Source of the DNA: Nitrosomonas sp. Nm51
GTDB lineage: Bacteria; Pseudomonadota; Gammaproteobacteria; Burkholderiales; Nitrosomonadaceae
Reading direction: 5' to 3'
Assembly: GCF_900111165.1 (NCBI RefSeq)
Contig: NZ_FOGH01000008.1
Span: 1 to 64,000 of the forward strand
Length of the DNA: 64,000 bases
Shown: one piece after another, positions 5,612 to 63,305 of the stretch
Position numbering within the stretch: the stretch's first letter is position 1
Layout: each line of letters begins with the position of its first letter
Notes under the pieces: generated by a model
The model's database searches: none
What the model was told of the DNA's origin: nothing
What the model saw: the letters and a program-made list of their open reading frames with translations, nothing else
Program-made: the position numbers and the translations under genes

Positions 5612-5654
5612 GTGCCGGTAACCGTCATGGACTTATAAAACAAGATTAAACAAC

Positions 5655-5908
5655 CATACGCTATCATATGATATTGCCGGGTTCTGTGCGCTTGTCAATG
5701 ACCATGGCAAGACGTGCCTTGCAGGTGGCGGTTCTGTTGTCAAAAGGCGCACAGACCATGGATGCTGACAAGCGCACCCACAGGCGTTACCATGGTGTCC
5801 TGCGACTGCGTTACTGTACTTGAAAAGGGAGCTACCTTTTCCAGCATGCTGCGCCTGTTGTATAACACCACGGCAACGCTGTACCCGGCAATATATGGAT
5901 AGCGTACC
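5655..5908 (+). repeat. Palindromic interspersed repeat, full copy 1
   Basis: This is a 254-bp element with outer inverted ends: CTATCATATGATATTGCCGG at 5661-5680 against the complement of CCGGCAATATATGGATAGCG (5885-5904). Inside are three further inverted repeats. Arm A pairs GTGCGCTTGTCA (5686-5697) and CCATGG (5702-5707) with CCATGG (5756-5761) and TGACAAGCGCAC (5766-5777). Arm B pairs 5780-5798 with 5864-5882. Arm C, nested in B, is GAAAAGG (5822-5828) with CCTTTTC (5835-5841). The fold is a cloverleaf-like branched hairpin. A second full copy lies inverted at 13801-14090, and end fragments lie at 23366-23389 and 63059-63090. Short frames inside it on both strands are not genes. It fills the gap between the divergently read prmB and tadA. 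Confidence 0.85.
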
Positions 5909-5970
5909 AGAATGTCATAACACCTGCGCAAAGATTTGAATCTTTACAAGATTGCATTAAACTGTTACAA

Positions 5971-13800: not shown

Positions 13801-14090
13801 CCAGTACTTTCAATCTGATATTGTCATGTACAGCGTTACCGTGGTGCTTTGCAGTAAGGCGCAGTGGACAGGAAAGGGTATTTCCCTTTTCAAGCAGTGT
13901 AACTGCGACTGCAGGGCACCACGGTAACGCCCTGTGGGTGAATTTGTCAGCGCACATGGACTACGTTGAGTCTTTTGGCAATAGAATGACTATTACCTGC
14001 AAGACGCGCCTCGCCATGAACGCTGACAAATTCACTGAACACGGTAGTATCAAGTTGAAAGAATACTGGTACGCTATCAATATGAAATAG
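13801..14090 (-). repeat. Palindromic interspersed repeat, full copy 2 (inverted)
   Basis: This is homologous to the element at 5655-5908, in opposite orientation. Arm B is ACAGCGTTACCGTGGTGC (13830-13847) paired with 13916-13935. Arm C is the AAAGGG/CCCTTT hairpin at 13872-13891. Arm A is GTGAATTTGTCAGCG (13938-13952) plus CATGG, paired with CGCTGACAAATTCAC (14021-14035) plus CCATG. The arm A loop keeps the same sequence as copy 1 (CTTGCAGGT and CAAAAG on the minus strand). Outer ends: CCAGTAC and TTTCAATCTGATA (13801-13820) against 14050-14067. A 90-codon frame across it is not a gene. It sits between era and pdxJ, where recO is expected. Confidence 0.83.
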
Positions 14091-23195: not shown

Positions 23196-23365
23196 CCTGC
23201 CTGATCCTTGCGCATTAAGAATTGAAAAAATTGCTATAGATACAATATGGCTGTTATTAAAAGCCAGCGGGATCAAGTATACCTATTCAGCAGGGTCACG
23301 AAAACCAATAAGCTTCATTCATTGAAGACAACAAGCTGTGCGTGATAGTTCATTGATCATTCGCT

Positions 23366-23389
23366 AATATCATATGAATAGAGTACTAG
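23366..23389 (-). repeat. End fragment of the palindromic interspersed repeat
   Basis: On the minus strand this reads AGTACTCTATTCATATGA followed by TATT. It matches the fragment at 63059-63090 with one or two differences and the 5' end of the full element at 5655. The rest of the element is not recognisable on either side. The gap 23196-23493, between the divergently placed rpoE and queF neighbourhoods, holds nothing else I can identify. Confidence 0.6.
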
Positions 23390-29766: not shown

Positions 29767-29950
29767 ATAGCTCCCTGCTGTGTACGTTAAGGCTGAAATT
29801 CTTTGAACCAATTATCAATCTTGGTTGTTAACTTAAGTGGCACTGGTGTGCGAACCCTAAACGGGCTTGCCTGATGTGCTCGGGAGACGACCACCTTGAA
29901 CCATAAGGTTCAAGATGATGGTCTGGCGGCATCTGCGGGGAGCTCCCACC
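29767..29950 (+). ncRNA. ssrS: 6S RNA
   Basis: The RNA that imitates an open promoter and sequesters sigma-70 RNA polymerase in stationary phase. The segment ACCTTGAACC-ATAA-GGTTCAAG (about 29892-29912), followed by GGCGGCATCTGCGGGGAGC, matches the conserved 3' half of 6S RNA. The 5' end TAGCTCCCTGCTGTG pairs with CTGCGGGGAGCT to form the closing stem. The central bubble flanks GGGCTTGCCTGATGTGCTCGG are as expected. It lies about 45 bases after zapA, its normal place. Ends are estimated from the closing stem. The ygfA gene that often follows is missing; IS debris follows instead. Confidence 0.9.
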
Positions 29951-62953: not shown

Positions 62954-63058
62954 GAAAGATTTAGATCGGTTATGGAAGTGCCTCAATGAAACGATTTATC
63001 CGGCAGATCACAAGACATTCGTCACGACTGCCAATTCGATCGCAAAATCCGGCAAGAC

Positions 63059-63090
63059 TAGTACTCTATCCATATGATATTGCCGGGTTC
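63059..63090 (+). repeat. End fragment of the palindromic interspersed repeat
   Basis: CTATCCATATGATATTGCC and the following GGGTTC match the 5' end of the element at 5655-5908 almost base for base. A few further bases (CAGTGA) resemble the start of arm A in copy 2. After about 63105 the match is lost, so only one end remains. Confidence 0.7.
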
Positions 63091-63187
63091 AGTGAGCCTG
63101 TGTCACAAAAGGTATTTCCACTTACCAGACATGCGCTGATCAAAATACCCTCTTGCATAATTCGGTGCGTTTATTTGCATTAAGGAT

Positions 63188-63278
63188 GCAGGCCAAAATA
63201 ACTTGAACAATATGGCCTAAGTACCCCCTCGTAAAATGCCCGATACAGGATAAAGTGTTCAAGTTATTTTGGCCTTGC
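63188..63278. repeat. Perfect 20-bp inverted repeat around a 46-base spacer
   Basis: AGGCCAAAATAACTTGAACA (63190-63209) is exactly complementary to TGTTCAAGTTATTTTGGCCT (63256-63275). The element lies between ftsH and the Sel1 lipoprotein gene. It has no T-run at either end, so a terminator is unlikely. It may be a small MITE or a transcript-stabilising hairpin. No other copy was noticed in the window. Confidence 0.7.
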
Positions 63279-63305
63279 TCCTAAGCTACGTTTAGAACGG
63301 GTAAG

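Follow-up and report, generated by a model that had tools for sequence, protein, structure and literature searches.

The window analysed here, a stretch of 64,000 nucleotides from the Nitrosomonas sp. Nm51 genome, contains two full copies of an interspersed repeat, both of which are intergenic and each of which folds as an outer stem with two long arms. Copy 1 (5653-5910, + strand) lies between a gene for a ribosomal L3-type methyltransferase (TIGR03533) and a TadA gene, and copy 2 (13801-14069, - strand) lies between pdxJ and a gene for an era-like GTPase with a KH domain. Copy 1 is degenerate, its CTAG ends having decayed to ACCA and CCAG, and its borders were set by eye against intact relatives. 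It comprises a left terminal inverted repeat with lead-in (5653-5685, +), arm A in the sense orientation (5686-5777, +; 62.3 bits), an inter-arm linker (5778-5783), arm B, which is the same motif on the opposite strand (5784-5879, -; 69.6 bits), and a right terminal inverted repeat (5880-5910, -); the terminal repeats were placed by alignment with full copies and the arms and linker with a covariance model. In copy 2, delimited by the same model and by eye against intact relatives, arm B (13833-13930, +; 81.2 bits) precedes the linker (13931-13937) and arm A (13938-14035, -; 88.6 bits). The original prediction had recognised both copies, their common architecture and the start of copy 2; its borders for copy 1 were slightly too narrow, and the segment at 14070-14090 (+), which it had assigned to copy 2, is probably the end remnant of an older copy with the same terminal CCAG. 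It had also described the compensatory stems of arm A, which are indeed present as GTGCGCTTGTC/GACAAGCGCAC and GTGAATTTGTC/GACAAATTCAC with three adjacent bases changed on both sides, and the arm A loop sequences CTTGCAGGT and TTGYCAAAAG, which are found in both copies; that arm B repeats the arm A motif as its reverse complement is an addition to that description. The four arms in the window were detected with E values of 2.9e-14 to 1.8e-21, and two further matches are weak (E 0.024, on the antisense strand of 5686-5777, and E 4.1). Compared with 200 dinucleotide shuffles, none of which equalled the native folding energy, copy 1 has a z of -6.99 and copy 2 of -11.32. Truncated copies are represented by a lone element end at 23365-23389 (-) and by an end with the first bases of arm A at 63058-63104 (+), of which 63058-63082 is the end itself; 100 shuffles gave 0 such end matches.

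Several other features were encountered in the window. An Rfam scan located a guanidine-I riboswitch (RF00442; 49938-50040, -; 89.6 bits), 6S RNA (29769-29945) and SRP RNA (1638-1736). A different inverted repeat, AAGGCCAAAATAACTTGAAC with its complement about 50-60 bases away, occupies 63190-63290 beside the truncated end at 63058. Its 18-base core occurs again as an inverted pair near another element copy (locus L029, 2393-2476; 1 of 475 loci), and it is possibly a second repeat family.

The element family occupies at least 44 places in the Nm51 genome (BLAST; 3.24 Mb in 131 contigs), some of them truncated, and the element end alone has 120 matches there at up to 3 mismatches, compared with 0 for a reversed-pattern control. 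Both ends are recognisable in 28 distinct copies, excluding those of the window, whose ends are too decayed. The intact form is 270 bp long, beginning with CTAGTGCTCTATCAATATGATATTGCC and finishing with GGCAATATCATATTGATAGAGCACTAG, and full copies 95% identical to one another exist in this genome; Nitrosomonas marina Nm71 carries the element as well. The element is without a transposase gene and, at about 270 bp, falls under about 500 bp. Its many places, its lack of a transposase gene and the empty sites described below bear out the earlier suggestion of a non-autonomous mobile unit. In a set of 27 Nm51 loci chosen because they had a lone end or two ends close together, 12 shortened copies could be mapped to the full element, no two of them having the same pair of junctions by eye. 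Six other loci of the set (L113-L117 and L143) carry 37-bp palindromes, in which two element ends are fused and the core is deleted, as slippage between short direct repeats that lie within the ends would be expected to produce. Unlike full copies, the shortened copies show no sign of multiplying even though they keep both ends, which suggests that the core or the length of the element is required for movement. As for an autonomous relative, the lone ends that could be recognised all belonged to truncated copies, and a 1.85-kb end pair in another genome (G006) enclosed a glutamyl-tRNA synthetase-like ORF (by eye) between two separate copies.

Insertion sites were examined by comparing 12 joined flank pairs with 61 genomes of the genus, Nm51 included. 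Fifteen stretches were fetched, of which 5 matched one flank and 10 covered both flanks and were aligned (5 loci, 4 related genomes). Read by eye, the empty targets were CTAG (three), TTAA (two), ATAA (two), TTAG, CCAG and CAAT (one each), i.e. NTAN in 8 of the 10 alignments, and where the copy is present it is bordered by CTAG on both sides. This outcome bears on the earlier proposal to look for target duplications at the borders, and it fits insertion at CTAG/NTAN. In a table of 48 copies the outer target bases differ from C/G in 14 of 96 cases and the inner bases in 8 of 96; duplication of TA is weakly favoured over that of a 4-bp CTAG. An IS630 element with other ends abuts one of the elements with a CTAG common to both, and this arrangement, like the CCAG shared by copy 2 and the apparent older remnant, fits CTAG targeting. 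By raw count, 11 of the 28 intact-ended Nm51 copies coincide precisely with the stop of an open frame that is 80 codons or longer; the stop is supplied by the terminal CTAG (10 TAG) or CTGA (1 TGA) of the element, and the upstream frame keeps a stop.

When the arms were aligned without a fixed orientation, arm A and the reverse-complemented arm B emerged as one hairpin motif of about 97 nt, arranged as stem 1, stem 2, CAAGGC, stem 3, GCAGG, stem 4, a 5-nt loop TYRTT, stem 4', TCAA, stem 3', AACGCAG, stem 2' and stem 1'. The core of about 200 nt consists of two such inverted arms joined by a small hairpin, and the two arms of one element are alike in their loops and not in their stems. Among 44 arms from the genus (22 A and 22 B), 22 of the 26 pairs are changed on both sides; there are 320 both-side-changed cells compared with 28-57 when the partner is slid, and 91.8% of cells are paired compared with 36-43%. 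The signal is retained when the arms are taken apart, with 60 both-side cells against 1-10 for A alone and 82 against 0-11 for B alone. Of 500 shuffles, none reached the observed value in three of five covariation measures, 2 reached the number of both-side pairs, and 23 reached the number of further pair types (55, compared with 51.3), which is a weak measure. Unaided, RNAalifold predicted 26 pairs, 23 of them identical to those of the model. Across 150 arms from many genera, both partners of every one of the 26 pairs vary, with 1305 both-side cells versus 201-313 and 94.7% of cells paired versus 29-41%; this alignment had been fitted to the model and is biased in its favour. Loop conservation in this full set is partly there by construction, because 58 of its 100 sources came from an exact-pattern search in which many of the loop letters are prescribed. 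CAAGGC and AAC are nevertheless kept at 90% or more in the 61 of these 150 arms that were not pattern-fetched, in the 48 such arms from outside the Nitrosomonas loci, and in the 84 arms that do not contain this pattern, and most of GCAG, AA..GG and CAAG is kept at 60% or more in the same subsets. Within the Nm51 genome loops are not slower than stems (Mann-Whitney P 0.26), and between the consensus sequences of Nm51 and a sister species (G019) differences affect 42 of 134 stem positions and 6 of 45 internal-loop positions (P 0.02). A complete Nm51 copy folded as single-stranded DNA adopts the same kind of cloverleaf (z -17.7). Covariation together with conserved loops strongly supports selection on the motif as a folded single strand; the compensatory pairing exceeds what transposon ends explain, and the selection on a folded strand that was originally proposed is likely. 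In one genome (G686) the arm matches span 133 nt rather than 97 (C467:12654-12786, 80.4 bits; C155:8018-8150, 78.8 bits), and these insertion-bearing arms may perhaps show which parts of the motif tolerate change.

The linker between the arms reads CC-TNC-GG in 35 of 76 elements and its complement CC-GNA-GG in 21, i.e. one or the other in 56 of the 76 on the strand of the best-scoring arm, and many Nitrosomonas copies have CC-ACA-GG instead. As RNA, the former would be a C(UNCG)G tetraloop and, as DNA, the latter would be a C(GNA)G triloop, both of which are exceptionally stable. Since a stable form is available in either nucleic acid, the linker fits selection for folding and does not favour RNA over DNA.

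The distribution of the core extends well beyond this genus. A 97-position covariance model, searched with stricter filters and with no more than 49 or 11 matches scored per genome, which makes the copy numbers lower bounds, detected the arm in 27 of 85 genomes of the genus (E 0.001), in 91 of 349 genomes and 45 of 147 genera of the order, and in 109 of 369 genomes and 85 of 271 genera of the class (E 0.0001), the three sets overlapping and including Nm51 itself. The search of the genome and its relatives that had been suggested at the outset was thus fruitful at all three ranks. An exact degenerate pattern matched at least 117 stretches in named genomes, 80 of which were listed as loci, and the matches listed include Nitrosomonas, Thiobacillus, Sulfuricella, Gallionellaceae, Rhodocyclales, Thalassotalea, Colwellia, Agitococcus, Lysobacterales and Candidatus Thiodiazotropha, along with MAGs labelled Mariprofundaceae, Desulfobulbus and Rhizobium; the MAG labels outside the Gammaproteobacteria could be binning errors. 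The exact core pattern had 0 matches in viral contigs, and the Nm51 element had none in plasmids and phages. In three plasmid searches with elements the only hit was a lone 60-base arm-like match on an Azotobacter chroococcum plasmid (NZ_CP010421.1, 19287-19347), obtained with the first of two other elements; the second had no plasmid match, and neither did one 42-base end. The window repeats have no gathering-level match in Rfam 15, and three other copies gave nothing beyond weak hits on eukaryotic families that fell far short of the cut-offs. Here, as in the literature discussed below, no named family was found, in line with the earlier description of the family as not recognised.

With regard to the transposase, the best candidate partner in Nitrosomonas belongs to the IS630 family. 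In the sister species G019, the right end of an IS630 fragment equals the end of that genome's element at 29 of 35 bases. The transposase stop codon falls inside the fragment end CTAGCACTCCTTCAACTTGATATTGCCGG, where the G019 elements have CTAGTACTCCTTCAACTTGATATT, and 23 of the first 24 bases of the two are identical by eye. Overall, the right ends of two IS630 fragments (G019 and G088) share 25-29 of 35 bases with three element ends, compared with 18-24 for three other IS630 ends used as controls, and a transposase with matching ends, which had been put forward as something to look for, can in this sense be named. The Nm51 genome contains an IS630 copy of about 1.2 kb with one decayed end and interrupted frames, the better (left) end of which does not stand out, as its 23-24 of 35 matches to the elements are no higher than the best unrelated control (24). 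Of 6 genomes searched, 3 contain DDE_3 (PF13358), and the G088 transposase relative is an IS630 transposase by NCBIfam (E 2e-43) and DDE_3 by Pfam. Transposase relatives occur in 11 of 85 genus genomes, namely in 6 of the 12 with at least 10 arm matches versus 5 of the other 73 (Fisher P 0.0007, kinship ignored; P 0.004 and 0.0002 at thresholds of 1 and 5 arms, kinship likewise ignored). This co-occurrence is loose, since the relatives extend down to 43% identity and several have different ends. An intact full-length IS630 partner was not seen, the Nm51 partner having broken frames in a draft of 131 contigs. Six loci with IS630 fragments bearing the ends of the element had no arm at E up to 1, which indicates that the core is not derived from the partner, as far as these incomplete fragments show; a seventh locus is simply an element next to another IS630. 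Within this genus, an IS630-family transposase acting in trans is the most likely means by which the element moves.

The same core is also found with entirely different ends. The best 150 of 167 arm matches could be assembled into 112 candidate elements, of which 86 had an end pair at a score of 36 and 26 were dropped; as L274 and L297 are the same, 85 are distinct. Of these, 71 measure 255-295 bp, with a median end length of 33.5, and 5 are single-arm elements of 155-170 bp, which shows that a second arm is dispensable. At a local score of 13 (500 shuffles had a mean of 5.2 and a maximum of 9), the ends of the 85 elements form 19 sequence groups, 11 of which have at least two elements; the figure of 19 is approximate, because 8 groups are single elements and some borders are uncertain. 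Arms up to 86% identical can carry ends that score 8 or less against each other. Target duplications are of at least two kinds, TNA in addition to the favoured TA: in the groups with GAG/GGG ends, identical 3-bp flanks occur in 13 of 35 distinct elements, all of them TNA, compared with 4.5 when shuffled, and TNA duplication is typical of part of the IS5 family. One single-arm element (G498) has ends that begin CTAGTACATCAACC, as in a second IS630 type of G019; these ends match that type at 25 and 24 of 35 bases and other IS630 ends at 18-23, a weak preference. For two other end types, no partner insertion sequence was recognised at up to 3 mismatches in 18 genomes, 14 of them with such ends, and the six lone ends of these types that were inspected belonged to element copies that were shortened or cut off by a contig border. 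For one end type of the GAG/GGG kind, the places inspected at end sites with up to 3 mismatches in 31 bases likewise gave no recognised partner in 11 genomes. End pairs 600-3500 bp apart numbered 4 in 212 loci, which we read as neighbouring single-arm elements. The combination of one core with many unrelated ends and at least two kinds of duplication suggests that the core passes between transposase families, and the interior is a structure-conserved module that occurs far more widely than the IS630 with like ends.

Based upon these features, the repeat is, on balance, probably a non-autonomous DDE-type MITE that is moved by IS630 and whose folded core acts in cis and is shared among transposase families. 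This reading rests on the core and not on the match to IS630 ends or the TA duplication. Mechanistically, an IS630-family transposase would recognise the ends of about 33 bp and insert the element at CTAG/NTAN, and the core would work in cis for the element itself, presumably by forming DNA hairpins or a cruciform, which would offer a host factor its site and hold both ends together during transposition. Such a role for the core at the DNA level appears most likely, and we prefer it because the arms are symmetric, the size is nearly fixed whatever the ends, and selection seems to be for moving rather than for helping hosts. Since the arms are inverted, either strand has exactly one sense arm, nearest its 5' end, and the element is therefore independent of orientation. 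The core would then pass from one transposase family to another rather than belong to any of them.

A bolder version of this proposal, which we put forward tentatively, is that the core is a transferable folded DNA or RNA module that parasitises unrelated DDE transposases, acquiring new ends while its architecture of about 270 bp stays fixed and its hairpin code conserved, and requiring its fold in cis for movement. If true, it would constitute a new class of selfish element defined by the structure of its core and not by its ends, and a host factor common to Proteobacteria would read the hairpin.

The core could alternatively, though we consider this unlikely, function as RNA. It would be transcribed from the genes on either side, and the single sense arm in each transcript would be bound by a host protein or change the stability of the RNA, to the advantage of the element or the host. 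Both the covariation and the loop conservation are in agreement with an RNA, as is the raw count of copies on stop codons, which would place them in 3' untranslated regions. The C(UNCG)G form of the linker would also be apt, but the complementary linker, stable as DNA, prevents this feature from being decisive. Furthermore, no Rfam family matches, and 5 of 12 tested loci are empty in at least one relative, indicating that the genus has not retained these copies as host features. The ratio of G.U to A.C pairs gives no clear strand either, at 156 to 37 in the model-fitted arms, where the model favours G.U, and 217 to 174 in arms found without the model.

Less probable still is that the interior is the filler of an ordinary MITE, its pairing being the result of hairpin-templated correction during replication and its loops being alike by ancestry only. 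Palindromes are known to mutate by template switching, the hairpins do seem to provoke deletions, to judge from the 37-bp palindromes and the 12 other shortened copies, and loops and stems vary alike within the Nm51 genome. Across many genera, however, the loops are more than 90% conserved while every stem pair changes, the two arms of a single element keep their loops but not their stems, and one core is combined with 19 end groups, all of which already disfavour this explanation. The original prediction had set an ordinary MITE, to be known by its IS ends, and something else as alternatives; with IS630-like ends and a structure-conserved interior both present, the two hold together and the clean choice between them does not. 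A single unrecognised system that moves all of the elements and makes short T/A-rich duplications, with the IS630 likeness being secondary, would account for their constant size across end groups and for the unrecognised partners of two other end groups, but is very improbable given the IS630 end match and transposase co-occurrence in Nitrosomonas and the fact that one group has NTAN empty sites whereas others have TNA duplications.

If the core of this MITE is indeed needed for movement, it would point to a previously unknown cis requirement that is common to different transposase families, whereas if it is RNA, it would be a common structured RNA absent from Rfam 15. MITEs are usually classed by their ends, with their interiors taken as junk; here, it is the ends that are changeable and the interior that is conserved, across many proteobacterial genera. 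A further consequence is a practical one, as the covariance model allows many unannotated intergenic repeats to be named.

Among known systems, the element resembles the IS630/Tc1-mariner MITEs in its IS630-like ends, its insertion at CTAG/NTAN, its lack of a transposase, its small size and its high copy number, but it differs from them in its two-hairpin interior, its strong covariation and its additional occurrence with unrelated ends and TNA duplications. Integron attC sites are likewise folded single strands in which certain unpaired bases are conserved. Unlike attC sites, the element has no gene cassettes that we could see, and its insertion appears to duplicate TA or TNA. RUP, ERIC/RU-1, Correia/NEMIS and the Yersinia palindromic elements are by description set apart, as each has one kind of end and narrow hosts. 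They are comparable in being small mobile bacterial repeats (reviewed in PMC2229807), some of which have structured transcripts. REP/BIME, which go with a RAYT partner, and the GTAG/CGTC-tagged palindromes are interspersed hairpins as well and are often paired in inverted orientation, but they measure 20-40 bp (PMC3733652), compared with 270 bp, terminal repeats and a target duplication for the element described here. The literature searched, which included parts of PMC2229807 and PMC10969869 and left most subscription papers outside, contained no description of the folded core. The general kind of element, a MITE, is known, and it is the core that makes this one a new form.
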